This document shows, piece by piece, positions 16,169-29,851 of a DNA stretch of 41,521 nucleotides. Both the position numbers and the translations under genes were made by a program. The stretch covers positions 1-41,521 of IMG/VR virus record IMGVR_UViG_3300016461_000037. One strand, written 5' to 3'. The DNA comes from a virus. Positions within the stretch are counted from its first letter, which is position 1; each line of letters begins with the position of its first letter. Under the pieces are notes generated by a model that made no database searches, was not told the DNA's origin, and worked only from the letters and a program-made list of their open reading frames with translations.

Positions 16169-16188
16169 TCTGTTTCCCGCCGCTCCCG

Positions 16189-16267
16189 TTGCGCTATCTA
16201 AGTTTTCCATGTATCAGTTGATTATTGCGCATGACGTGCTCCTAACTCAATCAGGAGATACGTCATG
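16189..16267 (+). promoter_or_regulatory. Structured late leader 1 (capsid)
   Basis: TTGCGC (16189-16194), 17 bases, TATCAG (16212-16217), then nine bases to GCGCATGACGTGC (16227-16239). CATGACGT (16230-16237) pairs with ACGTCATG (16260-16267), which contains the start codon. CTCCT (16239-16243) pairs with the Shine-Dalgarno AGGAG (16253-16257). The transcript should begin near the conserved block, with the hairpin at its 5' end. Confidence 0.7.
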
Positions 16268-17371
16268 GCCGGTCCTACGACCATCGCATTTGGTGATCCA
16301 AAAGCCCAGAAGAAGTGGTCTGGTTCACTTTTCATCGACACCACCAAGAAAAGCTACTTCGACCGCAAATTTGTTTCCACGGAAGACAACTCTGTTATTC
16401 AGCGTTTGACCGATCTGGAATCGGATGCGGGCGATACGATCGATTTCGATCTGTCCGTTCAGCTTCGCCAAAAGCCCACCACCGGTGACAACCGTCTCCA
16501 GGGCAAGGAAGAGAACCTCAAGTTCTTCTCCGATCAGGTCTACATCGACCAGCTGCGCCATGGTGTGTCGGCCGGTGGCAAGATGAGCCGTAAGCGCACC
16601 GTTCACAATATCCGCAAGATCGGCAAGGATCGCCTCTCCGACTATTGGGCGAAGTATATCGACGAGATGAACTTCATCTACCTGTCGGGCGCGCGCGGTA
16701 TGAACGAAGATTTCACCGAAGAAGTGACCTACGTCGGCCACGCCGGCAATCCACTTCAGGCACCCGATACGACGCATCTGATCTATGGCGGCGTTGCCAC
16801 GAGCAAGCTCACGCTCGCCGCAACCGACAAGATGTCGCGCAACGTCATCGAAAAGGCCGCCGTCGGCGCCCGCATGATGCGCTCGACCGATCCGACCACG
16901 GCGAACATGATGCCGGTCATGATCAACGGCGAAGCTCACTACGTGACGCTGATGTCTCCCTTCCAGGAGCATGATCTTCGCACCGCCGATGCCGGTGGCT
17001 GGCTGGAAATTCAGAAAGCGGCCGCCACCGCTGAAGGCCGAAACAACCCAATCTTCAAGGGCGGCCTTGGCATGATCAACAACGTCGTGCTTCACAGCCA
17101 TGAAAGCGTCATTCGCTTCAGTGATTTCGGCGCAGGCGGCAACGTCGCGGCTGGCCGCGCCCTGTTCCTTGGGCGTCAGGCTGGTGTCGTTGCCTATGGC
17201 TCTTCCAGCGGCCTACGCTTCTCCTGGACGGAAGAAATGCAGGATCACGGCAATGAACCTGTCATCTCGGCCGGTTTGATCCTCGGTGTGAAGAAGACGC
17301 GCTTCAACGACAAGGACTTCGGCGTAGTCGCCATCGACACAGCCGCGAAGAACCCGAACGCTGCCGCCTGA
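16265..17371 (+). CDS. Major capsid protein, N4-gp56 family
   Basis: 368-residue shell protein of the N4-gp56/DUF4043 family. Supporting stretches are AQKKWSGSLFIDTTKKSYFD at 14-33, GDTIDFDLSVQLRQKPTTGD near 56-75, the central QVYIDQLRHGVSAGGKMSRK, and the C-terminal VVAYGSSSGLRFSWTEEMQD followed by GNEPVISAGLILGVKKTRF. It forms the icosahedral head with portal and scaffold. The start codon and AGGAG ribosome-binding site lie in the 3' arm of leader hairpin 1, so translation start should need melting of that stem. A strong hairpin follows the gene. Confidence 0.92.
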   Translation: MAGPTTIAFGDPKAQKKWSGSLFIDTTKKSYFDRKFVSTEDNSVIQRLTDLESDAGDTIDFDLSVQLRQKPTTGDNRLQGKEENLKFFSDQVYIDQLRHGVSAGGKMSRKRTVHNIRKIGKDRLSDYWAKYIDEMNFIYLSGARGMNEDFTEEVTYVGHAGNPLQAPDTTHLIYGGVATSKLTLAATDKMSRNVIEKAAVGARMMRSTDPTTANMMPVMINGEAHYVTLMSPFQEHDLRTADAGGWLEIQKAAATAEGRNNPIFKGGLGMINNVVLHSHESVIRFSDFGAGGNVAAGRALFLGRQAGVVAYGSSSGLRFSWTEEMQDHGNEPVISAGLILGVKKTRFNDKDFGVVAIDTAAKNPNAAA

Positions 17372-17380
17372 TTGATGGAT

Positions 17381-17401
17381 GCCGCAGCCACGCGCTGCGG
17401 C
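17381..17401 (+). other. Intercistronic hairpin after the capsid gene
   Basis: GCCGCAGC (17381-17388) pairs with GCTGCGGC (17394-17401), eight GC-rich pairs, loop CACGC. No U-run follows (TCCTCCCCCTT), so it is more likely a 3' stabiliser or weak attenuator of the abundant capsid message than a full terminator. Confidence 0.55.
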
Positions 17402-17441
17402 TCCTCCCCCTTGTGAATTTCACCATTCGTTGGAGAACGAT

Positions 17442-17894
17442 ATGACCATTTTCCAGAGCGATGCCATCAAGGGCATTGTACCAACGCCCTACCCGGCCTT
17501 TGCCGGTGTGGCAGTTACAACCCGTTTCACAATCACCGTGCCCGCCACGGCCGCTGCGAACGACATCCTTGAAGCCGTAATCATCCCAGCTGGCACCCGC
17601 CCCGCAGACATCTTCATCGATGCTGACGACGTTGACGGCGGTGCCGGCATTACGTTCGATCTCGGTGTCATGAGCGGAGCGGTGGGGTCAAAGGACCCAG
17701 CGCGCACGTGTGGCGCTGAATTCTTCGCCGCTTCCGCGCTGGGGCAGACCGGCGGCGTGGCGCATCCCACGCTTGTCAGCGCGTACCGCGTCGCCGCGTC
17801 CAACGTCGAACGCTCGATTGGCATCAAGATCAAAACCGCCGCCGCCACGCCGCAGGCAGGCGTGATCGGCATCACACTCACCGTCGTAGCGTAG
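17442..17894 (+). CDS. Capsid-associated (decoration or vertex) protein
   Basis: 150-residue protein starting at ATG 17442 with TTGGAG upstream; the longer frame from 17379 has an unlikely Pro/Ala-rich start in the capsid hairpin. The composition is Ala/Thr/Val-rich and strand-forming: AFAGVAVTTRFTITVPATAA, then VIIPAGTRPADIFIDADDVD, then a C-terminal PQAGVIGITLTVVA. The position right after the capsid gene and the beta-rich small size fit a head-stabilising protein. The gene is bracketed by two strong hairpins. Family inferred from context. Confidence 0.6.
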   Translation: MTIFQSDAIKGIVPTPYPAFAGVAVTTRFTITVPATAAANDILEAVIIPAGTRPADIFIDADDVDGGAGITFDLGVMSGAVGSKDPARTCGAEFFAASALGQTGGVAHPTLVSAYRVAASNVERSIGIKIKTAAATPQAGVIGITLTVVA

Positions 17895-17923
17895 AGCTGG
17901 GGCGAGATACGCCACGACGTGAG

Positions 17924-17955
17924 GACGGCAGCTGGTGTCGATATCAGCTGCCGTC
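17924..17955 (+). other. Terminator-like hairpin after the decoration gene
   Basis: GACGGCAGCTG (17924-17934) and CAGCTGCCGTC (17945-17955) form a perfect 11-bp stem with a ten-base loop. It fills the 87-base gap before the next gene. There is no U-tract, so it probably attenuates or protects the upstream capsid-region message. Confidence 0.6.
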
Positions 17956-17981
17956 AACCTTAACCGCAACAGGAGAGCCCC

Positions 17982-18563
17982 ATGCCTCTAATCGAATGCA
18001 CAGTCGGTCCAGCTGAAGCCACCGTAGGCGGCCGGAATTACGCTTTTGAGCGTGACAGTTTCATGCGCTACGTCGCTCGTGTGCACAATGCGCGGCATGT
18101 AGCGTGTTTTCTTGGCTCCCCTGTTTACCGCGAAGTCGACGAAATCCCGGCGGTCGAGCCCGAAGTCGACGAAGACGACACCGAAGACACCGAAGACACC
18201 GAAGACACCGAAGACAATAATCCTCCTGCACCTCCTATTGCGCAAGCGCCAGGCATTCAGGTCATTGTGCCGAGTGAGCTTTTCCCGCCGGTTCCGGTTG
18301 CGCCTTCTACTCTTCCGCCGGTTCCGTCTTCGGATAGCCAGACCGAAGAGAGCGAAGAAGCAAAAGCACTCGCGGCCGCAATTCAGGCGTCGGCCGACAA
18401 GGCCTTGGCCGAACACAAGGCCAAGCTTGTACCGCCGGCTGAACTGGTTGGCTCGGTGCCAGCGGCTCCCGTTGTTCCGAAAGAGACGACTTTTCCTCCG
18501 CTCAGCGAAAAGACCGCCAAGCCTGCGGGCAATCGCGCTGCGCGCCGTCGCGGAAAGAAGTAA
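17982..18563 (+). CDS. Hypothetical head protein with acidic DTE repeats
   Basis: 193-residue protein with AGGAG before ATG 17982. The first 50 residues look folded (TVGGRNYAFERDSFMRYVAR, then CFLGSPVYREV). Residues 55-78 are almost all Asp/Glu/Thr because of a four-fold nine-base repeat. The middle is Pro-rich, then a charged helix (ALAAAIQASADKALAEHKAK), and the end is basic (NRAARRRGKK). The split of acidic and basic ends suggests an internal or assembly protein that contacts DNA or capsid. No family recognised. Confidence 0.6.
   Translation: MPLIECTVGPAEATVGGRNYAFERDSFMRYVARVHNARHVACFLGSPVYREVDEIPAVEPEVDEDDTEDTEDTEDTEDNNPPAPPIAQAPGIQVIVPSELFPPVPVAPSTLPPVPSSDSQTEESEEAKALAAAIQASADKALAEHKAKLVPPAELVGSVPAAPVVPKETTFPPLSEKTAKPAGNRAARRRGKK
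18177..18212 (+). repeat. Four tandem copies of GACACCGAA
   Basis: Exact nine-base tandem repeat (4 units), in frame, encoding Asp-Thr-Glu repeats in the 17982-18563 gene. Slippage here would change the length of the acidic tract by three residues without a frameshift. Confidence 0.85.
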
Positions 18564-18566
18564 TCG

Positions 18567-19271
18567 ATGCCAACCGGCCGCGAGATCATGAAACAGGCCA
18601 GCGTGATACTCAATGACGATGAGTATGTGCGCTGGCCCATGTCTGAACTCAAGGACTGGATCAATGAAGGGGTTCGCGCGATTGTTCTCGCGAAGCCTTC
18701 AGCGTCATCAAAGAGCATTGCGCTGAAGCTTGCCGTCGGCACCCTACAGTACATCTCGGCCGACAGTGCACCAGCCGTTCCATTATCGCTCGTGAAGATC
18801 GTTCGGAACCTCAAATCCGATGTTCTTCCGCGCGTAGGTAGCCGCACGATCACGGCCACGCTCGGCACGCTGCTTGATGCGCAAGACCCCTTTTGGCATG
18901 ATCCCTTGCGGACCCGGTACAAGAAGGAAGCGCTGCACTACGTCTATGACGAGAACAATCCGCTCGAATTCTACGTCTACCCAGGCAACGACGGCACCGG
19001 TGTACTTGAGGCGATCATATCGTTCCTGCCTGACCCGCTGAAGGCGACCGGATCGGAAAACGAGATCGCGTCTTATGCAGGTGAGGTTGGCCTGCCAGAG
19101 CCGTATTCCGTGCCCCTGCTCGACTATGTCCTCTACCGAGCCTTGAGCAAGGACGATTTGACCGGAAATCCGACGCAGGCCGGGGCTCACTACCAGCAGT
19201 TCGCAACAGCCGTTGGTTTGAAGATCCAAGTTGAGGCCGCCACGACGCCGAACGCGCGGAGATCCGCATGA
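18567..19271 (+). CDS. Head-tail connector/adaptor protein, DUF6682-like
   Basis: 234-residue protein starting three bases after the previous stop. MPTGREIMKQASVILNDDEY, then WPMSELKDWINEGVRAIVLA is the usual start of a podoviral adaptor family, followed by strand regions (EFYVYPGNDGTGVLEAIISF) and the late LLDYVLYRALSKDDLTGNPT with a helix around QAGAHYQQFATAVG. It likely binds below the portal as the connector for tail proteins. Its stop overlaps the next start (ATGA). Confidence 0.8.
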   Translation: MPTGREIMKQASVILNDDEYVRWPMSELKDWINEGVRAIVLAKPSASSKSIALKLAVGTLQYISADSAPAVPLSLVKIVRNLKSDVLPRVGSRTITATLGTLLDAQDPFWHDPLRTRYKKEALHYVYDENNPLEFYVYPGNDGTGVLEAIISFLPDPLKATGSENEIASYAGEVGLPEPYSVPLLDYVLYRALSKDDLTGNPTQAGAHYQQFATAVGLKIQVEAATTPNARRSA

Positions 19272-19897
19272 CGTCCATGGTCGATATCGAAGAGTTTCTG
19301 CCGGACGTCTTGGCGTATGCGCCGAGTTGCCCCGTGCCTTTGGCCTACCGTTGGATTCGAGATGCAGCCAAGCAGATCTGTGTCCGGGGCATGATGTGGC
19401 GTGAGTGGGATCAGTTTCAGGTGACGTCTCCGGAGAGCGAAGGCGTCTGCACGTATCCTGATGCCAGCATTGAGCGCATCGAGTCCGCCAAGCTCGACAA
19501 CATCGAGCTGACCGCCGTCACACCTGGTTGGCTCGATAGCAACGTGCGGGACTGGGAATCGTATTCTGACAACGGTCAGGGCAAATGGGTCACCCAGATC
19601 AGCCCGAACACGGTAACCGTTGTTCCGAAAGTGACCGGGATGCTTAAGTTGCGCCTGGTGCTCGTTCCCTCGCGCACCGCCGAAATGCTTCCGGCCTTTC
19701 TGCTCGATCAGCATGCGACCGAGATCAGCAAAGGCGCGGCCGGCCGCGTCCTCACCACTCCCAACAAAGAATTCGCAAATCCCCAATTGGGCTTGGCGAT
19801 GATCGGTGAATTCACCGCAGCACTCGACACCATCGCTGTGAAAGCGGCGAAGGGACAGCAAACGGCGCGCCTTCACACCAAAGGTCGATATTTTTAG
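19268..19897 (+). CDS. Tail adaptor/structural protein
   Basis: 209-residue protein, translationally coupled to the adaptor gene by ATGA. The N-terminus MVDIEEFLPDVLAYAPSC, CPVPLAYRWIRDAAKQICVR is typical of a helical connector-type protein in this gene order; the middle is strand-rich (KLDNIELTAVTPGWLDS) and the C-terminus has a helix (EFTAALDTIAVKAAKGQ). Probably part of the neck or tail tube in the same complex as the previous protein. Function inferred from order. Confidence 0.65.
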   Translation: MTSMVDIEEFLPDVLAYAPSCPVPLAYRWIRDAAKQICVRGMMWREWDQFQVTSPESEGVCTYPDASIERIESAKLDNIELTAVTPGWLDSNVRDWESYSDNGQGKWVTQISPNTVTVVPKVTGMLKLRLVLVPSRTAEMLPAFLLDQHATEISKGAAGRVLTTPNKEFANPQLGLAMIGEFTAALDTIAVKAAKGQQTARLHTKGRYF

Positions 19898-19908
19898 GAG
19901 ACTATGGC

Positions 19909-20325
19909 ATGGCCGCTTCAACGTATGCCGCCAACAAATTGCTCGATCTGCTTCTGCGCGGTGTGGCCTTTGTGCCTCCGACACGGGTCTACGTATCCTT
20001 GCACACCGCTGACCCGGGCAACGCTGGCGGAAACGAGATCACTCTCACCGCCTGGCCCGCTTACGTTCGCAAGGACCCGGCGAACGGCGGCGCAATCGGG
20101 ACGGGTTTCTCGGTTGCCGCGAATAAGGCTTCAAACAATCTTCAGGAAATGCTGTGGGGCGCGCAGGACGGCGCTGCGCCGATCACCGCGACCCATTTTG
20201 CGATTTGGGATGCACTGACAAACGGCAACCTGCTGGTTTATGGCCCATTGACCGTATCAAAAATCGTGGGCCCGACGGACGAACTTGTAATCCACTCACC
20301 CGAACTCAAAATTACGGTGCAGTGA
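19909..20325 (+). CDS. Tail structural protein (fibre-attachment type)
   Basis: 138-residue protein with AGGAG just before ATG 19909. The pattern VYVSLHTADPGNAGGNEI, a mid segment VRKDPANGG, then ITATHFAIWDALTNGNLLVY and a beta-rich end is that of small phage tail proteins found next to fibre genes. It is likely a beta-sandwich domain in the tail. It overlaps the next gene by one base (TGATG). Confidence 0.65.
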   Translation: MAASTYAANKLLDLLLRGVAFVPPTRVYVSLHTADPGNAGGNEITLTAWPAYVRKDPANGGAIGTGFSVAANKASNNLQEMLWGAQDGAAPITATHFAIWDALTNGNLLVYGPLTVSKIVGPTDELVIHSPELKITVQ

Positions 20326-20837
20326 TGTTCAGTCGCGGCTCCATAAACGGCGAAGTATTGAACGCGCTTCCCCTGAACGGCGGCAGCTTTGTCGAAGAGG
20401 CATCTGGAGCCTGCGAATTCTCGGTGGTTGGATCTATTCAAGCAAATCGCCGCTTGACCGCGACTGGAGCTGCTTCGATCGCTCTTGTGGGCACTGCCGG
20501 CATCTCGCTCCGTTTGCGCGTCGGTGGTGTGTCCAGCGTTGGCATGGTTGCATCTGGGTATGCCGCACGCCGCGCGGCCGCGCGAGGGGTGTCCGAACTT
20601 GGTGTGGATTTGCTCATGACCGCTGCTCGGCGCGTCAACTTGCAGGGCACCTCGCCAATTGCAATCGACGGTATGCTCGTGCTCTCGCACACCTTCTTGC
20701 GTCGTACCGCGCCGCGGCGAATTATGGAAATGCGCCCGGAGCTCCGCAACCTCGATCATCACGGCGGCCGCAGACAAGTCACGGTTCCTAGAGAACTCAC
20801 GAACCTGACGGTCGCCAAAGATCGGAGATCGGTATGA
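20325..20837 (+). CDS. Hypothetical tail protein
   Basis: 170-residue protein starting at ATG 20325, coupled to the preceding stop; an upstream in-frame start at 20154 is a frame extension only. It begins FSRGSINGEVLNALPLNGGS, a pattern seen in small tail proteins, then Ala/Val/Gly-rich strands with repeated small-residue blocks, ending in an Arg-rich tail (APRRIMEMRPELRN). Position suggests a fibre-proximal structural protein. It ends four bases into the next gene. Confidence 0.6.
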   Translation: MFSRGSINGEVLNALPLNGGSFVEEASGACEFSVVGSIQANRRLTATGAASIALVGTAGISLRLRVGGVSSVGMVASGYAARRAAARGVSELGVDLLMTAARRVNLQGTSPIAIDGMLVLSHTFLRRTAPRRIMEMRPELRNLDHHGGRRQVTVPRELTNLTVAKDRRSV

Positions 20838-21115
20838 GCCTCGGCAGCTTCGAAAAATCTCCGGACGATGTTCTTGATTATGACGTCCTATTCGACCGCT
20901 GGTTGCCCGCCGGCGATCGCATCAGTGCGTTTACGGCCACGGTAGCCCAAACCACTGCGTCATTTCGGTCAAGCGAGTTTGCCGACACTTCCGTCAAGGT
21001 TTGGATCGCGGGCGGCGTGGCCGGTGAAAACGGCGTAGTGACCGTGGAAATCAAGACACTGCAGGGCAGGACAAAGGAAGCGTGCTTCCGACTTCGCATA
21101 AAGGATTGCAGCTGA
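20834..21115 (+). CDS. Fibre-tail adaptor-like protein
   Basis: 93-residue protein starting ATGA-coupled at 20834. It has the pattern KSPDDVLDYDVLFDRWLPAG, then a strand region VKVWIAGGVAGENGVVTVEI and TLQGRTKEACFRLRIKDC, which I recognise as the small family often annotated as phage fibre-tail adaptor. It probably joins the fibre encoded next to the tail. It overlaps the fibre gene by one base. Confidence 0.75.
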   Translation: MSLGSFEKSPDDVLDYDVLFDRWLPAGDRISAFTATVAQTTASFRSSEFADTSVKVWIAGGVAGENGVVTVEIKTLQGRTKEACFRLRIKDCS

Positions 21116-22239
21116 TGACCGTGAAATTCTCGAACAATGCGACTTCGACTCTGGCGGCAAGCATCACGGCCGCCGCTAGCACGCTAGCCGTGGTCTCCGC
21201 TGACGCCGATAAGTTCCCCACGCTTGCAGTCGACGAATGGTACCCGCTGACAATCGTTGATGGTGCCGGCAATATGGAGATCGTAAGGGCCACGGCCCGC
21301 GCCGGAGCCGTCATCACGATCACACGTGGCCAGGAAGGCACAACTGCCAAAGCCTTCACGGCAGGCGCGCGTGTCGACCTTCGACCAACAGCGCAAGCAC
21401 TGGCTCGATTTGCCCAGATCGGAGATGACGGCAAACTTCAGGCGTCGCAAATTCCTGATAGCGTTCAGAAGAATCTGAACGCAGTCAACAATTTTGAGTT
21501 GAACAGTTGGCTGACCGCCGATTCCCCAGCGTATATCGATTTCCACGCCAGTTTCCCGCTCAAGGATTTTGATCTGCGCATTTTTCGCAATGCCGGTGTC
21601 AATGGGGGAGCTGAAATTTCTAATCTTGGCACCGGAGGCATAATACACCGGGTCGAGGGCGGTTCATTCAGCTTTCTCGGCGGCGACGTCTTTACGGAAA
21701 AGAGCCTTCAGATCAACAGCGGTTCGCTCAATATTCAAGCGCTGAATAGTACCGCGAACGCACATACATGGTATAGGCATTCCGACGGTGCGTGGCGGGC
21801 CATAACTTACGCCGACGCGGCTGACAATTTCTTGATTGTCACGAAACGCGGCACCAAAACCTATAGCTTTTCAGAGGGCAATTTAGTGGTTCCCGGCACT
21901 GTAGCCGCCGCAAATGGTGCCGCTTACATCAACACCGACGGTAACGTCTACGGGCCGCGTTGGAATACGTGGGGTTCGTATTATGCATTTGACGCTACGA
22001 ACGCGCAAATTGAACGGCGAGCACAGGATTGGGCCAATACCCGCGTGAGCGACAGTCGCATGGCTGGCGAAATCAATCTGGACATGAACGTAAATGGCCA
22101 GCCATTCGGCGACCTCCACAATAGCGGCTACGTCCTTACAAGGGTTCAACACAGCCGTGATTTCGGCCTGCTGTTCGGCTCGCGTCAGCCCCAGCTCTAC
22201 ATCCAGAATCGCGGTTGGTTTGCCGCGTTCCCATACTGA
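21115..22239 (+). CDS. Tail fibre protein
   Basis: 374-residue receptor-binding candidate from ATG 21115 (TGATG coupling). The N-terminal 95 residues (TSTLAASITAAASTLAVVSA, then EIVRATARAGAVITITRGQE, GTTAKAFTAGARVDLRPT) form the anchor domain typical of phage fibres that sit on the tail. A coil follows, then a Ser/Asn/Gly-rich beta region and a C-terminal FGLLFGSRQPQLYIQNRGWF. No pectate-lyase or S74 motif is seen. It determines adsorption; the gene after it is probably its partner. Confidence 0.75.
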   Translation: MTVKFSNNATSTLAASITAAASTLAVVSADADKFPTLAVDEWYPLTIVDGAGNMEIVRATARAGAVITITRGQEGTTAKAFTAGARVDLRPTAQALARFAQIGDDGKLQASQIPDSVQKNLNAVNNFELNSWLTADSPAYIDFHASFPLKDFDLRIFRNAGVNGGAEISNLGTGGIIHRVEGGSFSFLGGDVFTEKSLQINSGSLNIQALNSTANAHTWYRHSDGAWRAITYADAADNFLIVTKRGTKTYSFSEGNLVVPGTVAAANGAAYINTDGNVYGPRWNTWGSYYAFDATNAQIERRAQDWANTRVSDSRMAGEINLDMNVNGQPFGDLHNSGYVLTRVQHSRDFGLLFGSRQPQLYIQNRGWFAAFPY

Positions 22240-22251
22240 CGGAGACTGACT

Positions 22252-22911
22252 GTGAAAAATTTCGGCAAACTTGTCCAAACAACCGAGACGGTTTCAATCG
22301 TTATTTCCCCAGAAAGAACGACTGACGTTCCACCCGTCTTTGATCAGGACGGCAATCTCGTAACACCTGGCCGCACGGAAACAATACCCGAGGTTCGGGA
22401 GGTTAAGCAGATCATGGTACTGCGCAACGCCGATGGCGTAGAATGGCACGAACTTTTCAAGCAGTTTCCGCACCCCTGGTACATCGCAGTTATGGATGAC
22501 GGACGGATCATTTCGATGGAAAGTGATCCGGAACAATCGCAGATTGCAGAGTGCACTCTGTGGGGAATTGATAGCAACTTTGGTTTTACCAGAGGCACGG
22601 GCGGCACGGTCTATGGCAAGATTTGGGACGGTATCAAGATCGCACCTCGCCCCGTCCTGCCGCTGACCTCGCCACTGTCGCCAGACAAATTTTACGGGTG
22701 GTTGGACAGCTTGGGAAAGCTAGATCCATTTGCTGCAGCAATCGAACAGGTGACGCCGGTAGCGAAAAAAATGACCTGCCGAAACCAGTTCAACAATTCG
22801 ACATCGTTCACCTGGGACATGGTGCTCATGACCCTTGTTGCCCCATTGGTATGGGATGCCAACTGGCAGGATCAGGTTAGCGGCTCGTGGGTCGCGGCAA
22901 GTCAGGCATAG
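22252..22911 (+). CDS. Fibre-associated protein, unknown family
   Basis: 219-residue protein with a GTG start at 22252 preceded by GGAG. The N-terminal part is strand-rich (VSIVISPERTTDVPPVFDQD, an I-P-E-V repeat region), the middle VLRNADGVEWHELFKQFPHP, WYIAVMDDGRIISM. Placed directly after the fibre it may be a second fibre component or a chaperone. The 3' end overlaps the opposite-strand acyltransferase by ten bases. Confidence 0.6.
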   Translation: MKNFGKLVQTTETVSIVISPERTTDVPPVFDQDGNLVTPGRTETIPEVREVKQIMVLRNADGVEWHELFKQFPHPWYIAVMDDGRIISMESDPEQSQIAECTLWGIDSNFGFTRGTGGTVYGKIWDGIKIAPRPVLPLTSPLSPDKFYGWLDSLGKLDPFAAAIEQVTPVAKKMTCRNQFNNSTSFTWDMVLMTLVAPLVWDANWQDQVSGSWVAASQA

Positions 22912-24038
22912 GCGAGCGCAATTGCGAAATACGCAGCCAAATACGCGGTTATAGCAAAGAGGGTTGGCAAACCCTTTGCGTGAGTTGCCACCCGGCGAGA
23001 CCAGTTGTGGATGACCATATCGATCTGTCCAAGCACTGCACCGCCTGCCACAGCAGCGGCAATGCGGATTACCAAAAAGGACGGACCAAGCTCCTTGAAA
23101 GCCGGCTGATACAAGACAAACAGCACCGGGATATGTATCAGATAGAGGCCATAGCTCCAGTCGCCGAGCTTCTTAAACACCGGTCGCACTATGGTGGGCA
23201 TAAAGTCCGGAATGCGAATAACTGCTGCGACGAGGAAAACTGCGCTAATTCCGGCAGCCAATTGTTCGTAGGCCAAGGTGGGCGCAAAATAGGCCAACAC
23301 CAACGCCAATCCGGCAATCGCGAAGGCAGAATTGGTGCCAACACGTTTGATATGATGGATCAAAAGGCCGCCTGCAAGCCCAATGCATACAACTTGCAGA
23401 GGCAGATTGGCAATCGTGGGGAAGCCCAAGGTTTGAATGCCGAGCATCGCTGCCAGGATGATTGAGATGGCCCAGACGCCAGCAATGAGGGCAACGTGGC
23501 GCCGTAGGCCTACCACGCTGACCGCGAACAAGCCTACGTAGAAAAAGACCTCATAAACCAGTGTCCATTCGACCTTGCCAAGCGGGTACTTTGTTTCCCC
23601 GACAGGTGCGAGAGACATGCTCGCGAGGTTGTACTCACCCCATATTTTCGGATGCGCAACCATGATTGCGACGGTAGCCAGAATGAATAGAGGGTAAATT
23701 CGCAGACAGCGCCGCACAAGGAATTCCACCGGTCCTTGTGTCTGTACGAGCGTCGACATCAGATTGCCCGAGATCGCGAAGAATACCGCAACGCCGTAAA
23801 TCCCGAAAAGCTCCAACGCATGCATCGGCATTATGCTGACGCCGTATTCGGAAGCATGGAAAAGAGCCGCGTGAAAGAACGCCACTGAAAGTGCCGCGAG
23901 GCCACGCAGGTAATGGATGTTTGGATTATATCCTATGGTGCCGGTTGAAGCGGTTTGCTCAACTGGTGTGATCTTAAGTGTTGCGTCTAACAGAATGCTT
24001 CCCCCGGCGAATACAATCGTAGGTAGCACCGTTTTCAC
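22902..24038 (-). CDS. Acyltransferase 3 family membrane protein (serotype conversion candidate)
   Basis: 378-residue polytopic membrane protein of the acyltransferase-3 (OafA/NodX-like) family, which O-acetylates surface polysaccharide. It has about ten hydrophobic helices and the family start NIHYLRGLAALSVAFFHAAL with its conserved Arg and His, then GIYGVAVFFAISGNLM, and the late WSYGLYLIHIPVLFVLY. Phage copies usually modify lipopolysaccharide O-antigen in the lysogen and block further adsorption. It lies against the late direction, next to the fibre genes, and its end overlaps 22252-22911. The GTG at 24038 lacks a strong ribosome-binding site, so the true start may be downstream. By eye, less GC-rich than neighbours. 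Confidence 0.85.
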   Translation of the reverse strand: MKTVLPTIVFAGGSILLDATLKITPVEQTASTGTIGYNPNIHYLRGLAALSVAFFHAALFHASEYGVSIMPMHALELFGIYGVAVFFAISGNLMSTLVQTQGPVEFLVRRCLRIYPLFILATVAIMVAHPKIWGEYNLASMSLAPVGETKYPLGKVEWTLVYEVFFYVGLFAVSVVGLRRHVALIAGVWAISIILAAMLGIQTLGFPTIANLPLQVVCIGLAGGLLIHHIKRVGTNSAFAIAGLALVLAYFAPTLAYEQLAAGISAVFLVAAVIRIPDFMPTIVRPVFKKLGDWSYGLYLIHIPVLFVLYQPAFKELGPSFLVIRIAAAVAGGAVLGQIDMVIHNWSRRVATHAKGLPTLFAITAYLAAYFAIALAYA

Positions 24039-24069
24039 GCCGTTGCCAGACGATCAGCAGCAAGTAGCT

Positions 24070-24149
24070 TTGCGGTTCCCCGAACTTCCGATATAAGAGT
24101 TTGACCAGCGCATGATGTGCTTTCCCTTGTTCGGAAGGTATATTCATGC
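24070..24149 (+). promoter_or_regulatory. Structured late leader 2
   Basis: TTGCGG (24070-24075), 16 bases, TATAAG (24092-24097), ten bases, then GCGCATGATGTGC (24108-24120). CTTTCC (24120-24125) pairs with the Shine-Dalgarno GGAAGG (24133-24138, one G-U). GCATGA (24110-24115) pairs with TCATGC (24144-24149) across the start codon at 24146. Confidence 0.7.
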
Positions 24150-25891
24150 CCGCAATTAAGCTGATTGGTTTCTCTGGCGAGCAGCCCCGCATTATTCCGC
24201 GTATGTTGCCAGACACAGCGTCACAGGCGGCAATCAACACGCGGCTCGACGACGGCGGGCTGACACCCATGCGCCGACCGGTGCAAGTCGACACAGTACC
24301 CAGCAAGACCGCAAAAACGATATATAGAAAGAACGGCGCTTGGCTCGCTTGGGAAAGCGTGGTGGACGCGGCGCCCGGTCCGGTCGCTGAGGATCGCCTT
24401 TACTTTACTGGCGATGGCGTTCCAAAGGTGATGATCGGAACAACGACCTACCCGCTCGCCGTGCCATTCCCAGCCAATGCGCTGGTCGCCGCAGTCTCAG
24501 GAACAAGCACCTCAGACATTGTCACGCGCACCTATGTTTATACTTATGTCACATCATTCGATGAGGAATCGGAACCAAGCCCCGCCAGCGTGCCCGTAGA
24601 TTGGCGCCCCGGACAGACGATGACCCTTTCCGGCTTCGCAGCACCGCCGGCTGGCACCAGGGTCAATCGCCGTCGCATTTACCGTTCCCAATCGGGGAAG
24701 AGCGGGACGTTCTTCTATTTCATTGCCGAGCAGCCGGCCACCGCGGCGAACTTTGTCGATGCCGTCGCTGTCGACGCATTCCAAGAACCGCTGCCGTCCA
24801 TCAATTACAATGCCCCACCCAACGACCTGAAGGGGCTGATCGCCCTTCCAAACGGCATCATGGCCGCCTTCGCTGGCCGAAAAGTCTATTTCTCCGTCCC
24901 GTATCGACCGCATGCTTGGCCGGAGAAGTACGTGATGACCGTTGATTATCCCGTGGTGGGCCTTGGGGCTATCGGCTCGTCCATGGTCATTATGACCACC
25001 GGCACGCCCTACTTTGTGTCCGGCTCGACGCCCGATTCTATGCAGCAGGTAAAGATCGAACAGAATCTGCCTTGCATCAACGCAAGGGGAATTGTGGATC
25101 TCGGAATGGCGATTGTCTATCCTTCCAACGAAGGACTGGTTGCCGTCCGCGCCGATGGTTCAATCTCGCTCATATCACAGCAGCTCTTCAGTCGGGATGA
25201 CTGGCTCGCCCTTTCGCCAGCGACCTTCATTTCGGGTCAAATTTCAGGTCGCTACATCGCGTTCTATGAGACAACCGATACCGACGGCGCGTTACAATTC
25301 GGCTCGATCTTCATCGACATTGCCGGCACGCCTTTCCTGATACGTTCCTCGACGCGGGTTACTTCCGTGTTTTTCGAGATTGGCAGTGGCGCGCTATACT
25401 TCCTTCAGCACGGCAGCAACAACATCTACCGCTTTGACAGCCCCGATGGCATGCGGGAAACGATGTACTGGCGCTCCAAGAGGTTCGTGCTTCCATATCC
25501 GGAGAATTTCGGAGCAATCCTCATCGATGCAGACAGCGCGCTATCCGGCGAAGAACTCAAAAATCAGGAAGCGGCCCGAACTGGTATGATTGCTCGAAAC
25601 AATGCGGCGATTGCGGCCGGTTCAATTGGCGGCGACGTAAACTCATTGCCGTTGAACTCCGTGGCGGTAGCCGGGGATATCCTTGAAATACTGCCAAGAC
25701 AGTATGGCACGATCAACGTTGGCGTTTTCGCCGATGGCAAAAAGGTTGCCCAGGTCTCGCGAACGAACAAGGTCTGCCGCCTTCCCCCCGGGTTCAAGGC
25801 CCGCACGTGGGAGATCGACGTATCCGGCGATATCGAAATCACTCAGATCGTGATGGGTAAAACCGTAGCGGACATTCAGCAAACAGCATGA
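24146..25891 (+). CDS. Tail structural protein, beta-propeller-like
   Basis: 581-residue virion protein. The start SGEQPRIIPRMLPDTASQAA, INTRLDDGGLTPMRRP is typical of a family of large podoviral tail proteins. A fibronectin-like segment follows (TYVYTYVTSFDEESEPSPAS, WRPGQTMTLSGFAAPPAGTR), then repeats of four-strand blades (for example KVYFSVPYRPHAWPEKYVM and NEGLVAVRADGSISLISQQL). It may form the tail nozzle or plug. Expression is set by leader 2, which hides the start codon. It is coupled by ATGA to the next gene. Confidence 0.75.
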   Translation: MPAIKLIGFSGEQPRIIPRMLPDTASQAAINTRLDDGGLTPMRRPVQVDTVPSKTAKTIYRKNGAWLAWESVVDAAPGPVAEDRLYFTGDGVPKVMIGTTTYPLAVPFPANALVAAVSGTSTSDIVTRTYVYTYVTSFDEESEPSPASVPVDWRPGQTMTLSGFAAPPAGTRVNRRRIYRSQSGKSGTFFYFIAEQPATAANFVDAVAVDAFQEPLPSINYNAPPNDLKGLIALPNGIMAAFAGRKVYFSVPYRPHAWPEKYVMTVDYPVVGLGAIGSSMVIMTTGTPYFVSGSTPDSMQQVKIEQNLPCINARGIVDLGMAIVYPSNEGLVAVRADGSISLISQQLFSRDDWLALSPATFISGQISGRYIAFYETTDTDGALQFGSIFIDIAGTPFLIRSSTRVTSVFFEIGSGALYFLQHGSNNIYRFDSPDGMRETMYWRSKRFVLPYPENFGAILIDADSALSGEELKNQEAARTGMIARNNAAIAAGSIGGDVNSLPLNSVAVAGDILEILPRQYGTINVGVFADGKKVAQVSRTNKVCRLPPGFKARTWEIDVSGDIEITQIVMGKTVADIQQTA

Positions 25892-26148
25892 CAAACTATT
25901 CGCTCGAGCAGCTGAAAGAAAAAGTCGAGATCCTCGCCGGTACAAGATCGCCGGAGAGAACCGGCGCGGCCGTCCGGATCGGCGACCTCGACGGGTTGAT
26001 TTCGATGGTAACGACTATGAAATCGGCAAAGGCCAATGGAACAACGCCAACCAAGGCCGAATACGACGCGCTGGTGTCCGACCTTCAGGTCGTGTTTCAG
26101 GCGATCATAGCACTTCAATCTGCGTTGCTGGAGAGGCTACAACCTTGA
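25888..26148 (+). CDS. Small helical phage protein
   Basis: 86-residue protein coupled by ATGA to the tail gene before it and by TTGA to the nuclease gene after. Mostly helical (SLEQLKEKVEILAGTRSPER, then TKAEYDALVSDLQVVFQAII), with the second helix probably a coiled coil. No motif recognised. It may be a structural partner of the preceding tail protein or of the nuclease. Confidence 0.55.
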   Translation: MTNYSLEQLKEKVEILAGTRSPERTGAAVRIGDLDGLISMVTTMKSAKANGTTPTKAEYDALVSDLQVVFQAIIALQSALLERLQP

Positions 26149-26567
26149 AGGCCGCAACTTTGCTTCGATTGATGGCGTGGACGAAGCTGGGAAGCACGCT
26201 CAAGCTCGGGCCGGAAGACCTGATCGCAATTGAATTTGCCAATCGCTTGCGTGCCTGGACGCTGGAAGGCAAATTGACGGCCGTCTGGTCCCACGTCAGC
26301 AACGAACTTGCCGGCGGCACCAAGAATGCTCGCATTCGGTATTCGATAGCAAAGGCCCTCGGTATGATCACGGGTTTTGCGGATTATGTGATCCTATGGG
26401 ACAGCGGATCGGCAGCGATAGAAGCCAAGTCCAAAACCGGAATGCAGACTGCAGGACAGTCCGACTTTGAAGAGTGGTGTCGCGCTCGAGGTGTTCCCTA
26501 TTACTTGATCCGATCGGCCGACGAAGGCGAAGCCATTCTCAAACAGCTTGGAGTTCTGCGGCCTTGA
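26145..26567 (+). CDS. VRR-NUC-type nuclease
   Basis: 140-residue PD-(D/E)xK nuclease of the VRR-NUC/Holliday-junction type. The core is GFAD80 YVILW, IE93-A-K95, then Q105 in TAGQSDFEEW, with a GVPYYLIRSADEGE end; Glu30 in IAIEF may join the site. VRR-NUC nucleases cut branched or structured DNA. Its place among tail/internal proteins is unusual and may mean it is a recombination or packaging cleaner, or ejected. TTG start with GGAGAGG eight bases before. It is coupled at both ends. Confidence 0.78.
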   Translation: MKAATLLRLMAWTKLGSTLKLGPEDLIAIEFANRLRAWTLEGKLTAVWSHVSNELAGGTKNARIRYSIAKALGMITGFADYVILWDSGSAAIEAKSKTGMQTAGQSDFEEWCRARGVPYYLIRSADEGEAILKQLGVLRP

Positions 26568-26989
26568 ACATCATCTATGGCGAGGATGAACGGTTTATCG
26601 ATTGGGCCCAGACGATCATGCCAGACGTGACGTTCCGCGACGACGCCTATGCTTTGGGGTGCGAGCGGGATGGGCAAATAGTTGGCGCTGTGATCTTTGA
26701 CACTTTTGGACCTTCGGATTGCCTGATCCATGTCGTTACTGACGGAAAGAGGCGCTGGTTCAGTCGCGAGCTTGCAACGCGCGTGTGTGCCTTCACATTC
26801 ATTCAGTGCAAATTCAGGCGCATCACGGCGATGATTTCGGCCGACAATGAGGCATCGTTGCGCTTCCTGGAGGGGTTTGGGGGCTGGGTGCAAGAAGGTG
26901 TGCTTCGCCAGGGTGGAACGAACGGCGAGGATCTAATCCTGTTCGGCATGCTTCGTCGTGACTGTCGCTGGTTGCCACTGGCATTTTGA
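26564..26989 (+). CDS. GNAT family N-acetyltransferase-like protein
   Basis: 141-residue protein from the TTG at 26564 (TTGA overlap, GGAG nine bases upstream). The middle has strand regions QIVGAVIFDTFGPSDCLIHV and the GNAT-like part ITAMISADNEASLRFLEGFG followed by GWVQEGVLRQG, a typical motif B region (N-x-A-S-x-x-x-L-E-x-x-G). These enzymes transfer acetyl from acetyl-CoA to amines. Phage members of this form usually sit next to tail or lysis genes with unknown target. Confidence 0.75.
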   Translation: MNIIYGEDERFIDWAQTIMPDVTFRDDAYALGCERDGQIVGAVIFDTFGPSDCLIHVVTDGKRRWFSRELATRVCAFTFIQCKFRRITAMISADNEASLRFLEGFGGWVQEGVLRQGGTNGEDLILFGMLRRDCRWLPLAF

Positions 26990-27001
26990 CGTCGGGCGAG
27001 A

Positions 27002-27058
27002 TATAAAAATCCATCACTGCGCATGAAGTGCAGTTCCTCACTTTAGGAACGCACCATG
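27002..27058 (+). promoter_or_regulatory. Structured late leader 3
   Basis: TATAAA (27002-27007), 11 bases, then GCGCATGAAGTGC (27019-27031). GTGC (27028-27031), a bulged A, and GTTCCT (27033-27038) pair with AGGAAC-GCAC (27045-27054), loop CACTTT; the Shine-Dalgarno AGGAA is buried in a ten-pair stem and ATG 27056 follows immediately. No good -35 hexamer is seen. Confidence 0.68.
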
Positions 27059-28216
27059 GGAAAAGGCAGTTCATCCGCTCCTAGTCCAGATCCACAGATC
27101 GGCAAAGCCGCGCTCGCGCAGGCGCAAACCGGTCAGGATTGGCTTAACTTCGCGCGAGAGTCCTTTGCGGTCTCGACGGAGAGGCAGAAGGATCTTGATG
27201 CCATCACCAAGAAGGTGACGGATCAGCAGCTGGGGGTGGCGACCGAGCAGGCCGCCAATGCCCGGAAAGATCGAGAGCGATACGATACGGTCTACAAGCC
27301 GGTTGAAGATCAGTTCATCAAAGAAGCGACGAACTACGACAGCCCCGAAAAGCAGGCGGAAGCAGCGGCCACGGCCAAAGCCGATGTCGCGTCGGCGAGC
27401 GCCGATGCCAGGGCGCAAGCGGATCGCAATGCCGCATCGATGGGATTGAGCCCAACGTCGGGCCGATACGCCGGCATCGACAGGGCTGGCGAGCTGGGGA
27501 CCGCATTGGCTTCATCAGCTGCCCAGAATGGGGCGCGCCAATCGGTTCGCGATAAGGGCCTCGCGCTGAAAGCCGATGTTGCCAATCTCGGCCGCGGATT
27601 GCCTGCGCAGTCTGCGCAGGCCGCAGCGTTGGGACTCACCGCTGGATCAAGTGCGGTGGGATTGACCGGCCAGGCCAACGCTCAACAGATGGCGGCTGGT
27701 AACGTCATGAATTCTGGTTTTCAAGGCCAGATGGCGGGATACGGAGGTCAGGCCAACGCCCTCAACGCGCAATATGGTACTCAAGTCGAGGCTTGGAAAG
27801 CGCAACAGGCGGCCAATGCGGCCAGCGCCGGTGGTTTCGGTACGTTCCTTGGTGGCATCACCGGTCTGATCATGAAGTCGGATGAAAATGCGAAAGAGGA
27901 CAAGTCGCCAGTCGATGATGGAGCTGGACTTGACGCAGTAAATGCGATGCCTATCGAGGAGTGGTCATACAAGCCGGGCGAGGGCGATAAAGGTCGCCAT
28001 ATCGGCACTTATGCTCAGGATTTTGCGAAGGCAACGGGCAAGGGTGATGGAAAGACTATCAACGCTGTTGATGCGATCGGCGTCACAATGGCAGCCGTGC
28101 AGGATCTCAGTAAGAAGATCGACAAGGTCGCCAACGCCGTTGGTCTAGGCCAGAAGAAAGCGGCCCAGATTGTGCCGCGTCGTCAGATGTCCGTGGGATT
28201 GGGAGCAGCAGCATAA
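27056..28216 (+). CDS. Internal virion/tail protein with S74 intramolecular chaperone domain
   Basis: 386-residue protein. The first 265 residues are Ala/Gln-rich helical, with a small-residue-rich part (QMAAGNVMNSGFQGQMAGYG). Residues 273-350 match the peptidase S74/intramolecular chaperone domain: SDENAK with Ser275 and Lys280 at the expected five-residue spacing, PVDDGAGLDAVNAMPIEEW, RHIGTYAQDF and DAIGVTMAAVQDL. S74 domains fold trimers and cut themselves off. The S74 domain normally ends fibres; here it ends a helical protein. It is translated after leader 3. Confidence 0.78.
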   Translation: MGKGSSSAPSPDPQIGKAALAQAQTGQDWLNFARESFAVSTERQKDLDAITKKVTDQQLGVATEQAANARKDRERYDTVYKPVEDQFIKEATNYDSPEKQAEAAATAKADVASASADARAQADRNAASMGLSPTSGRYAGIDRAGELGTALASSAAQNGARQSVRDKGLALKADVANLGRGLPAQSAQAAALGLTAGSSAVGLTGQANAQQMAAGNVMNSGFQGQMAGYGGQANALNAQYGTQVEAWKAQQAANAASAGGFGTFLGGITGLIMKSDENAKEDKSPVDDGAGLDAVNAMPIEEWSYKPGEGDKGRHIGTYAQDFAKATGKGDGKTINAVDAIGVTMAAVQDLSKKIDKVANAVGLGQKKAAQIVPRRQMSVGLGAAA

Positions 28217-29520
28217 TGAGCAGCTTGGGAATCGGCCTTGGGTCATTTATGGGCGGCTTTGAAAAGGGTTACGGGCTCGGTAGGGAGATTGAAGATCGGA
28301 AGCGCACAGACAAACTCCGCGACGAGGCGGACGCCAGCCGAGCAAAGCTGAAAAATATCGAGACCGATACGAAGGCTCAGTTCGACAAGGGTGTTTCCTC
28401 TGGTGCATTCAAACCAGAGCAATATGACGACTTCTGGCTCAAGTACGCATTGCCAAAACGCAAAATGGCATTGCTTGAGCAGGGCGACGTTGAAGGTGCG
28501 AAGGCGTTGATGGATTGGGGTCGCAGCGAGGATGCGCTGAAGGGCGGACGCTTGTTCGCCAGCTCGCTCTTCAAAGCACAGACGGGTGATGTTGAAGGCT
28601 CATTCGGTGACGCCATCAAGGCCGGTCAGTTGAAGGGATACATCGACCATGGGTATACCCTCGATGGCAAGGACGATCTCCAGCAAGACGGTAAAACGAT
28701 CGGCTTCCGGGTGCGCTTGAAAGACCCCGACGGAAACATCACCAGCCAGGACATTCCAGTCGGGCAATTGGGTACGGCAATTTCTACGTTGCTCAGCCCT
28801 GACGCCGCTATTGCCCAGAACGCCGCGGCAAGGGCCGCTGCCACCAAACGCAGTCAGGATCTGGAAGACTATACCACCAAGAAGAAGATCGACCAGAAAT
28901 ACTCCCCCGACCGAAAGGACGTGCATGCCGAAGCGTATAGCAAGGCACACGACGAACTGTTGAAAAACGACCTCGATTTCGCGGGGCTCTCACCGGAAGA
29001 ACAGGACAAGAAAGTCCGCGCCACGCTGGGGAAGGCCGATGCTTATTCGCAGTCGAAGTCAGACCGCGCGCCCGGTCTTGGTAGATCGAACCGCCCCGCG
29101 CCGCCGCAAAAGATACTGGTGGACCAGCAAACAGGGCGTCCAGTCCAAGCACCTCAGCAAGCTGCACCCGTACAGCAGGTGCCGCAAGAAGCGGCACCAG
29201 CTCAGCAGCCCGTCGGCCTTGGTCAATCGCCTGCGCAGCAACCAGCTGCGACGGTTGCACCGTCACAGGGCCAGCCAGTGGAGCAACAGCAAGCGCCACA
29301 ACAGGCCGGGCCCGCACCGCAACGCGCGCCCAGCGATCCCGTACTGATCCGACAGCAGATGATCGCGGATGCAGCCGACCGAATGGCACAGGGCGGCAAT
29401 CCGAACGCAATCGCTCAGGCGCTTATCAATGCTGGGATCAGTCAAGATCAGTGGCCGCCGGCTATTCAGAATGCCGTTCAGCGCTCGCAAGCACAGCCTG
29501 GCCCCGGCTTGCCGCAGTGA
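28216..29520 (+). CDS. Internal virion protein, Pro/Gln-rich
   Basis: 434-residue protein coupled by TAATG. It starts GIGLGSFMGGFEKGYGLGRE, a Gly-rich hydrophobic start seen in ejected podoviral proteins, followed by long charged helices (about 25-290), then a Pro/Gln-rich disordered region (about 300-380) and a helical end (MIADAADRMAQGGNPNAIAQ). It probably is packed in the head or tail and ejected before DNA. It ends exactly at an opposite-strand gene stop (TGATCA). Confidence 0.65.
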   Translation: MSSLGIGLGSFMGGFEKGYGLGREIEDRKRTDKLRDEADASRAKLKNIETDTKAQFDKGVSSGAFKPEQYDDFWLKYALPKRKMALLEQGDVEGAKALMDWGRSEDALKGGRLFASSLFKAQTGDVEGSFGDAIKAGQLKGYIDHGYTLDGKDDLQQDGKTIGFRVRLKDPDGNITSQDIPVGQLGTAISTLLSPDAAIAQNAAARAAATKRSQDLEDYTTKKKIDQKYSPDRKDVHAEAYSKAHDELLKNDLDFAGLSPEEQDKKVRATLGKADAYSQSKSDRAPGLGRSNRPAPPQKILVDQQTGRPVQAPQQAAPVQQVPQEAAPAQQPVGLGQSPAQQPAATVAPSQGQPVEQQQAPQQAGPAPQRAPSDPVLIRQQMIADAADRMAQGGNPNAIAQALINAGISQDQWPPAIQNAVQRSQAQPGPGLPQ

Positions 29521-29694
29521 TCAGGGTTTGCTGGCGCTTGATTTTCGCCAAAAGAAAACGGCGCCAGCAGCAGCAACAATCGCCAGGGCGCCGAGCGATG
29601 CCATAGCGGCGCCGATCGCTCCAAGCCCGCAGACGACGGCGATGCTCAGATAGAAGTTCTCAGGATTTTCTTTGAGCTGGTTGAACGGTTCCAT
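29521..29694 (-). CDS. 57-residue opposite-strand membrane protein
   Basis: Short gene with ATG 29694 and a strong AAGGGGG six bases upstream. The peptide starts MEPFNQLKENPENFYL, followed by hydrophobic helices SIAVVCGLGAIGAAMA and LGALAIVAAAGAVFFW, then a basic tail RKSSASKP. Two transmembrane helices and a short charged end resemble holin-like or membrane-moron proteins. As it is transcribed against the late genes, it is more likely a lysogen-expressed membrane protein than the phage holin. Its stop touches the end of the 28216 gene. Confidence 0.65.
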   Translation of the reverse strand: MEPFNQLKENPENFYLSIAVVCGLGAIGAAMASLGALAIVAAAGAVFFWRKSSASKP

Positions 29695-29768
29695 TTGAGC
29701 CCCCTTGTGTCGCTGACCTTATCCAGAGCGTTGCAACGCATCAACCGAATATTACCGCCGGTACCCTC

Positions 29769-29851
29769 TCGCGCGAGCAGGCGAGTGCATCTATAGTCGC
29801 CAAATCAAGGCGCATGACGTGCCAATTCTCCTTATGTGGAATCACGTCATG
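29769..29851 (+). promoter_or_regulatory. Structured late leader 4
   Basis: TCGCGC (29769-29774), 17 bases, TATAGT (29792-29797), 12 bases, then GCGCATGACGTGC (29810-29822). CATGACGTG (29813-29821) pairs perfectly with CACGTCATG (29843-29851), which includes the start codon. ATTCT (29825-29829) pairs with GGAAT (29838-29842, one U-G) and so covers the GGA used as Shine-Dalgarno. Confidence 0.7.

Follow-up and report, generated by a model that had tools for sequence, protein, structure and literature searches.

A family of structured leaders with a CsrA-type hairpin on the virion genes of Bcep22-like phages

The window analysed here, a 41.5 kb virus record taken whole (IMGVR_UViG_3300016461_000037; 41,521 nucleotides), carries one short sequence block in front of four late genes. 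What does a block placed in this way do? The original prediction took it for the 5′ end of a leader whose hairpin hides the ribosome-binding site, and proposed a late regulon with a common translation switch. We find that the leader is a real, conserved regulatory element: late genes of many related phages share it together with its structure, which fits translational control. Hiding of the Shine-Dalgarno sequence (SD) is not general, however, and two things had been missed, namely that the block itself forms a CsrA-type mini-hairpin and that a CsrA-like gene lies nearby. We consider it likely that this phage-encoded CsrA-like protein binds the leaders and controls translation of the virion genes, which would make them a family of CsrA-type regulatory leaders.

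Results

The block and its leader family

The pattern GCGCATGANGTGC occurs exactly, as originally predicted, at 16227, 24108, 27019 and 29810, all on the plus strand. These four copies in the window compare with an expectation of 0.01 from 100 dinucleotide shuffles, none of which reached four. One start codon follows each block, at 16265, 24146, 27056 and 29849, and each opens a long frame, again as claimed. The capsid gene had been named correctly, whereas the supposed tail protein gene at 24146 encodes an internal virion protein and the gene at 27056 a virion structural protein.

16265–17371, plus strand: major capsid (major head) protein gene (phrog_334, E=1.4e-128)
24146–25891, plus strand: internal virion protein gene (phrog_511, E=6.9e-185)
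27056–28216, plus strand: virion structural protein gene (phrog_8003, E=3.4e-143)
29849–41521, plus strand: giant open frame continuing past the end of the window, in the position of the DarB-like gene of relatives

The capsid relatives of the window are Bcep22-like phages and their kin: BcepIL02, DC1, JC1, PEp14, Pavtok, Parlo, Skulduggery, Itty13, LASTA, SopranoGao, PBC5 and POI1126. We searched loci L005-L105 and L107-L114, together with the window, for the relaxed block GCGCA.GA.?GTGC, merging sites identical from −20 to +60. This search, which the original prediction had proposed, placed 117 of 125 unique sites ahead of an ATG with an SD and an open frame 12-60 nt downstream, compared with 2 of the 21 sites given by five control motifs. 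In the Ochrobactrum phage POI1126 the block precedes four genes whose positions and names correspond to those of the window. One of them, gp26, has its annotated start (18530) within the leader, and the ATG at 18563 is a better fit. Four gammaproteobacterial phages (PEp14, SopranoGao, Itty13 and Parlo) have the leader at the capsid gene only, in the stretches scanned. A search of whole records with GCGCANGAN{0,2}GTGC was positive in 50 of 51, with 1-5 matches in most virus records; the set includes two whole bacterial genomes, with many chance matches to this pattern. Block and hairpin were both absent from the distant capsid relatives KLEP18-1 and RHph_Y1_10, which also gave no CsrA-like match in the stretches searched, and ctDrO704 had no usable leader. 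We rejected the canonical GGGCATGGANGTCC as a multi-copy regulon in the genomes G043-G046, where it matched exactly once each and its two-mismatch matches were scattered.

Some leaders stand apart by their setting. Rhizobial phages (L009 3295-3448, L019 5554-5706, L086 3248-3400 and similar) carry a divergent partner leader about 80 bp from the capsid leader on the opposite strand, on the side of the endolysin gene in PBC5, so that lysis and capsid genes have the element in common. A match to GCGCATGAGTGC (L009 285, L016 961, L086 253) overlaps, rather than precedes, the integrase start codon (PBC5 gp03, start 965); it is probably a chance match, or else an early target. The leader is also kept in Mwe-JY07 (PP395639.1), recorded from the cyanobacterium Microcystis; the family is otherwise proteobacterial, and the host label may merit a check.

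The block closes as a CsrA-type mini-hairpin

Folded on itself, the block is a short hairpin of the form GCGC-ANGA(N)-GUGC, as in the first leader.

16227–16239, plus strand: leader 1 block, mini-hairpin GCGC-AUGAC-GUGC

Passages of PMC7652899 describe ANGGAN in a short hairpin as a CsrA site and CAGGA(U/A/C)G as the CsrB repeat. Over the 117 sites placed before starts, the loops were AUGA (37), AUGAC (19), AGGAC (17), AAGAC (12), AGGA (11), AUGAU (7) and others (14). From 280 loci with a capsid match we compiled 121 unique capsid leaders, of which 87 have the strict block and 16 more have a hairpin with an A.GA or A.GGA. loop; six of the 121 have an ANGGAN hairpin. Circularity was avoided by scoring the 33 non-redundant capsid leaders that lack the strict block. 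In these, the loop pattern A.GA ranked first of 64 patterns (11 of 33 leaders; mean 1.1, shuffle maximum 4) and the hexaloop A.GGA. first of 256 (5 of 33; mean 0.125, shuffle maximum 2); one of the 11 A.GA hairpins (L149) sits upstream of an ANGGAN hairpin in the same leader.

In diverged relatives both strands of the stem change jointly while the loop remains ANGA or ANGGAN. ANGGAN hairpins include GGGC-AUGGAA-GUCC (L147-L149), GGGC-AUGGAU-GUCC (L150, L168) and GGUGC-AUGGAU-GCGCC (L248); other diverged forms include GGCU-AUGAC-GGCC (L124, L220), GCUCCGC-AUGAC-GUGGAGC (L060), GAGCGU-AGGAC-GCGCUC (L066) and ACGC-AGGA-GUGU (L180). Some diverged phages have the exact A-N-G-G-A-N or CAGGANG loop on a short hairpin, like RsmE-hcnA and CsrA-CsrB (PDB 2JPP; passages of PMC7652899), whereas the window loops are one G short and the GCGC/GUGC stems are strongly conserved. 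Copies within a locus resemble one another: the loop was identical in 29 of 60 within-locus pairs, compared with 16% between loci, and had the same length in 50 of 60, compared with 50%. This likeness may be the trace of a trans-acting reader, and shared ancestry of the copies could contribute. Four GCGC-AGGA-GCGC sites occur in the record of one phage and two GCGC-UGGA-GUGC sites in that of another, with gene placement examined at the capsid gene.

These hairpins bear on whether the block might instead be a DNA site, that is, an operator or late-promoter element whose hairpins are the by-product of a near-palindrome. Its near-palindromic form, its presence at several late promoters and its occurrence on divergent promoters would suit such a site, but the block follows the −10-like box with a variable gap, the far 3′ arm near the start codon goes with it, and the loop is asymmetric and conserved. 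We regard a DNA site as very improbable and the leader as most likely an RNA element.

A long hairpin competes for the same strand

The 3′ strand of the block has a second possible partner, and in predicted folds it pairs downstream in 55 of 60 non-redundant leaders. In leader 1 the resulting long hairpin takes the AUG, the SD (16253-16257) and the 3′ half of the block into pairs.

16227–16267, plus strand: leader 1, capsid gene; fold of −18.2 kcal/mol, pairing of the SD 1.0 and of the AUG 0.98
24108–24148, plus strand: leader 2, loop AUGAU, internal virion protein gene; SD GGAAGG (24133-24138) in the stem
27019–27058, plus strand: leader 3, loop AUGAA, virion structural gene; SD AGGA (27045-27048) in the stem
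29810–29851, plus strand: leader 4, loop AUGAC, giant gene; GGA (29838-29840) in the stem

The SD pairings given in the original prediction appear in the predicted folds of all four leaders, with an SD pairing of 0.97-1.0. Its statement that the start codon is also paired was right in kind, and its count of three in four too low, AUG pairing being 0.92-0.98 in every one. Across the 60 non-redundant leaders the SD was mostly paired in 47 and the start codon in 24. Because the GUGC strand is common to the mini-hairpin and the long hairpin, the two folds are mutually exclusive.

We asked whether the arms of the long hairpin fit their own leader in an arm-swap test (60 of 117 leaders kept as non-redundant; 5000 permutations). 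Outer arms paired at −6.79 kcal/mol with their own partner and at −5.57 when swapped (standard deviation 0.23), and inner halves at −6.86 and −5.29 (standard deviation 0.24); in both cases no permutation was as good. A MAFFT alignment covered 38 of the 60 leaders plus the variant leaders L066 and L060, and since MAFFT alone does not track the stems, a covariance model was used. Its search over 85 sources returned 138 matches, eight of which (L006, L007, L045, L047, L061, L065, L124 and L246) were weak, lay inside the capsid coding region, looked like a conserved coding stretch and were rejected. They had been part of a first count of 122 rows (cells changed on both sides, 123 compared with 82.5; 0/500 shuffles), and the recount was therefore limited to matches at E<=0.04, 110 in number, which make 96 distinct rows. 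In these rows 61.8% of cells were pairing, compared with 58.9% (standard deviation 0.6) when shuffled (0/500); with partners slid the share was 32-52%. The covariation score was 0.147 compared with 0.114 in shuffles (0/500). Further pair types (25 compared with 24.0; 186/500) were not distinct from shuffles. Covariation, a check named in the original prediction, is thus clear in the arm-swap test and only modest in the rigid pair count, which we infer is blurred by unequal loop and spacer lengths among the leaders.

The same phages encode a CsrA-like protein

The proposed regulator is a small protein whose gene follows the one downstream of portal, as in relatives; in the window an antisense gene (15449-16210) separates it from the capsid leader.

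15132–15371, plus strand: divergent CsrA-like protein of 79 aa, proposed regulator (PF02599, E=3.6e-5, 24.1 bits)

Its AlphaFold2 model, a monomer, has block means of the predicted local distance difference test of 89-97 over residues 1-50 and a predicted template modelling score of 0.56. The top 15 rows of a Foldseek search of the PDB were all CsrA, RsmA or RsmE, with a probability of 0.99-1.00 at ranks 1-14 and E of 0.02-0.16, none <=0.001. VIA gave Z 5.0 and a root-mean-square deviation of 3.8 with 51 aligned to 1vpz_B, the best unrelated row reaching Z 2.4; the lack of other families among the VIA rows carries no meaning. As modelled, the open reading frame (ORF) at 15132-15371 has the CsrA fold. 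Among family members PF02599 was detected in 46 of 64, and a profile of all 64 matches RsmE (2jpp) at 8.3e-11. The CsrA-like proteins of all five ANGGAN phages tested, L148, L149, L150, L168 and L248, score above the Pfam cut-off (31.7-48.3 bits), as do those of the relatives L186 and L075. Because the window's own loops and protein lie at the diverged end of the family, its putative CsrA assignment is best read as resting on homology to less diverged members.

A profile of nine CsrA-like proteins found a match in 45 of 51 records. The six without a match measure 16.8-39.5 kb, and the gene is present in all records of this set longer than 40 kb. The set holds PBC5, PEp14 and Parlo apparently twice, as well as the two bacterial genomes, and eight of its records supplied profile rows. 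Annotation places a 'CsrA-like regulator' immediately before the capsid gene in BcepIL02, PEp14, SopranoGao, Itty13, Parlo and Skulduggery. POI1126 and the window keep the same gene order, with small or cargo genes on the opposite strand separating the CsrA-like gene from the capsid leader, and rearranged PBC5-like phages have the CsrA-like gene elsewhere in the genome. Overall, the gene was found in the examined stretch for 92 of 121 capsid leaders.

Loop and protein score correlate before correction for kinship. In 48 phages, two of which lacked a Pfam match and were entered as 0, GGA loops went with higher CsrA scores (median 31.3 compared with 21.4, p=2e-5, uncorrected), and 16 of 22 GGA-loop phages were above the Pfam cut-off compared with 5 of 26 others. 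This correlation is mostly a between-clade trend. A K-x-G motif in the protein was found with 0 of 6 ANGGAN and 60 of 71 ANGA hairpins (p=5e-5; motif picked post hoc, kinship uncorrected).

A protein-free RNA switch, either a thermometer or a ligand sensor, could also use a long hairpin that covers SD and AUG as in the window, with the CsrA-like gene as an unrelated moron, which is what passages of the JC1 and CSP3 papers call csrA (PMC9144972, PMC10269572). An intramolecular thermometer would not require that the ANGA/ANGGAN loop be kept while the stems change, and the presence of the csrA-like gene in all the longer records also tells against a self-contained switch. Rfam release 15 gave no match in the window at the gathering score, and a permissive search of leader 1 gave one chance-level match and nothing else. 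We judge a switch of this kind improbable.

Evidence against a CsrA-type element

Several results weigh against the CsrA-type reading. The window loops (AUGAC, AUGAU, AUGAA and AUGAC) all lack the GGA triplet needed by CsrA, and GGA is absent from the loop in 86 of 117 sites, AGGA being present in 31. The mini-hairpin fold costs a median of 5.5 kcal/mol over the best fold in the 60 leaders, and 13 of them, PEp14 and SopranoGao among others, lack a mostly paired SD in the predicted fold. The own arm was within the best 10% for just 16 of 60 (outer) and 19 of 60 (inner) leaders. In the recount, pairs changed on both sides numbered 5 compared with 4.8 (305/500), a modest rigid pair count; cells changed on both sides fell to 78 compared with 59.1 (23/500) once weaker matches were removed; and a slide of +1 gave a covariation score of 0.165, above the 0.147 of the structure.

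On the protein side, the 24.1 bits of the window protein are under the curated PF02599 cut-off of 27, and the protein has L4 but no obvious arginine near R44, where many relatives have one. For 29 of 121 capsid leaders no CsrA-like match was found in the stretch examined, a group that includes rearranged phages and short fragments and for part of which whole records were looked up. A phylogenetic generalised least squares fit of loop and protein score on the capsid tree gave a positive, non-significant slope (p=0.18). Moreover, co-occurrence of leader and protein may be plain co-inheritance, because all carriers belong to one capsid lineage.

The block probably lies at or near the mRNA 5′ end

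TATA-like hexamers precede the blocks, as the original prediction had noted, with gaps of 9, 10, 11 and 12 bases in leaders 1-4.

16212–16217, plus strand: −10-like TATCAG, leader 1 (seen in the sequence; not called by the strict scan)
24092–24097, plus strand: −10-like TATAAG, leader 2 (seen in the sequence)
27002–27007, plus strand: −10-like TATAAA, leader 3 (seen in the sequence)
29792–29797, plus strand: −10-like TATAGT, leader 4 (seen in the sequence)

The −35-like elements also described there are present as TTGCGC, TTGCGG and TCGCGC, 17, 16 and 17 bp upstream of the hexamer in leaders 1, 2 and 4, but a strict sigma-70 consensus scan passed none of the four leader promoters and found no more hits in the region than chance. 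Across 75 non-redundant sites the one recognisable element upstream of the block is a TATAAT-like hexamer at variable spacing, the best TATAAT match within 30 bases starting −20 to −18 from the block in 30 of them. With a −10-like hexamer so close upstream, the mRNA probably begins at the block or close to it. The original prediction was probably right in this, but the block is more than a 5′ end or one arm of the SD-hiding stem, being also the CsrA-type mini-hairpin.

A position close behind the −10-like box would also serve 5′ protection, in which the bound protein or the hairpin itself stabilises the late mRNA against RNase E; passages of the literature describe a precedent in flhDC, whose mRNA is stabilised by CsrA. 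Protection of this kind needs no pairing with the start-codon stretch, and we think it unlikely.

A model for control by the CsrA-like protein

From these patterns we infer RNA binding and a second site, and with them a direction and timing of control. In the model that we prefer, the ANGA(N)-loop mini-hairpin at or near the mRNA 5′ end would be the docking site. Alternatively, the 3′ strand of the block would pair just before or over the start codon and form the long hairpin, with the SD covered in most leaders. A CsrA-like dimer would bind the mini-hairpin and probably also the GGA of the SD as its second site. All four window leaders have a second GGA at or beside the SD, 18, 16, 18 and 19 nt after the loop; since passages of PMC7652899 give 10-63 nt as the range that CsrA bridges between two sites, this spacing falls within it. 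Dimer binding would decide the fold and hence ribosome access: with the mini-hairpin held by protein, the SD would be released.

Activation of this type has a precedent in Escherichia coli ymdA mRNA, where CsrA binding opens an SD-sequestering hairpin and the leader has two CsrA sites (passages of PMC7492729). In the predicted folds an SD-sequestering hairpin likewise overlaps the CsrA-type site in all four window leaders. Unlike ymdA, a host gene under host CsrA, the phage system, known here from sequence, would combine a phage-encoded divergent protein with one leader type on several virion operons and loops that are often ANGA without GGA. We favour activation through opening of the SD-hiding hairpin and would give it about an even chance.

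Second to activation stands plain repression from two sites, to which we give about one chance in three. Here the dimer would bridge the 5′ hairpin and the SD, keep ribosomes off and delay the virion and lysis genes, with the long hairpin tuning basal translation. CsrA mostly represses, according to passages of PMC7492729, the 16-19 nt from loop to GGA suit bridging, and the PEp14-type and SopranoGao leaders, whose SD is mostly free (predicted pairing 0.17 and 0.28), fit repression better than activation. Repression does not account, however, for the recurrence in most leaders of an SD-covering helix in which the block takes part.

More tentatively, and at somewhat less than even chances, the lineage may have a private Csr system, in which the specificity of the protein and its sites would have shifted jointly between ANGGA(N) and ANGA(N). 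The protein would then serve as the dedicated late translational regulator for the genes of the capsid, internal virion and ejected proteins and for lysis, working by an RNA switch with two folds, and it may be packaged in the virion.

Neighbouring genes

Other genes of the window are also of note. The antisense ORF that separates the CsrA-like gene from the capsid leader (15449-16210, minus strand, 253 aa) has a predicted pPIWI-associated nuclease domain (PF18165, 6e-24) and may be defence cargo; in POI1126 different small antisense genes occupy this place. A 378-aa acyltransferase (22902-24038, minus strand; PF01757, 4.3e-19), antisense, downstream of the tail-fibre gene and just upstream of leader 2, is possible surface-modifying cargo. 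At the start of the window are an integrase (1-1287, minus strand; PF00589) and an MT-A70 methyltransferase (3424-4032, minus strand; PF05063), and the integrase gene suggests that the phage is temperate.

Discussion

The conserved CsrA-type loop, the competing folds, the leader family and the CsrA fold of the partner protein come directly out of the computation, and they meet in a group of phages whose csrA genes were already on record. Lessievirus JC1 and CSP3 have a csrA of the same protein family at the corresponding position, ahead of the major capsid gene; unlike our proposal, the passages of these papers that treat it as a moron describe no leader or target (PMC9144972, PMC10269572). 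One CsrA peptide was reported from JC1 virions, and the UHKP paper, in the passages available, gives a CsrA annotation only. Table 3 of Sobrero and Valverde 2020 (PMC7366521) lists csrA for phages DC1, Bcep22, BcepIL02, BcepMigl, PEp14, Parlo, SopranoGao, Pavtok and Skulduggery, and passages of that paper propose no targets for phage CsrA homologues. Phages with closer CsrA relatives (PA8, D65, YMC11/07/P54, VvAW1, PSTCR8lys and D279) were set aside as comparators, their csrA lying among early or hypothetical genes and not by the capsid gene. In searches of the open-licence PMC library, no listed paper describes, by its title or passages, this leader or a target of these proteins; the founding Bcep22/BcepIL02 paper, Gill et al. 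2011, is outside that coverage and could mention the hairpins.

Phage CsrA homologues have so far been annotated without a target, and the leader on the phages' own virion genes, which many of the genomes carry in several copies, is a proposed one. Its natural loop variants run from the textbook form to the shortened one and offer a ready set in which to follow joint change of an RNA-binding protein and its sites. The leader would, in addition, be a compact element of translational control for use in hosts, Burkholderia and Sinorhizobium among them, that passages of PMC7366521 describe as being without a chromosomal csrA.

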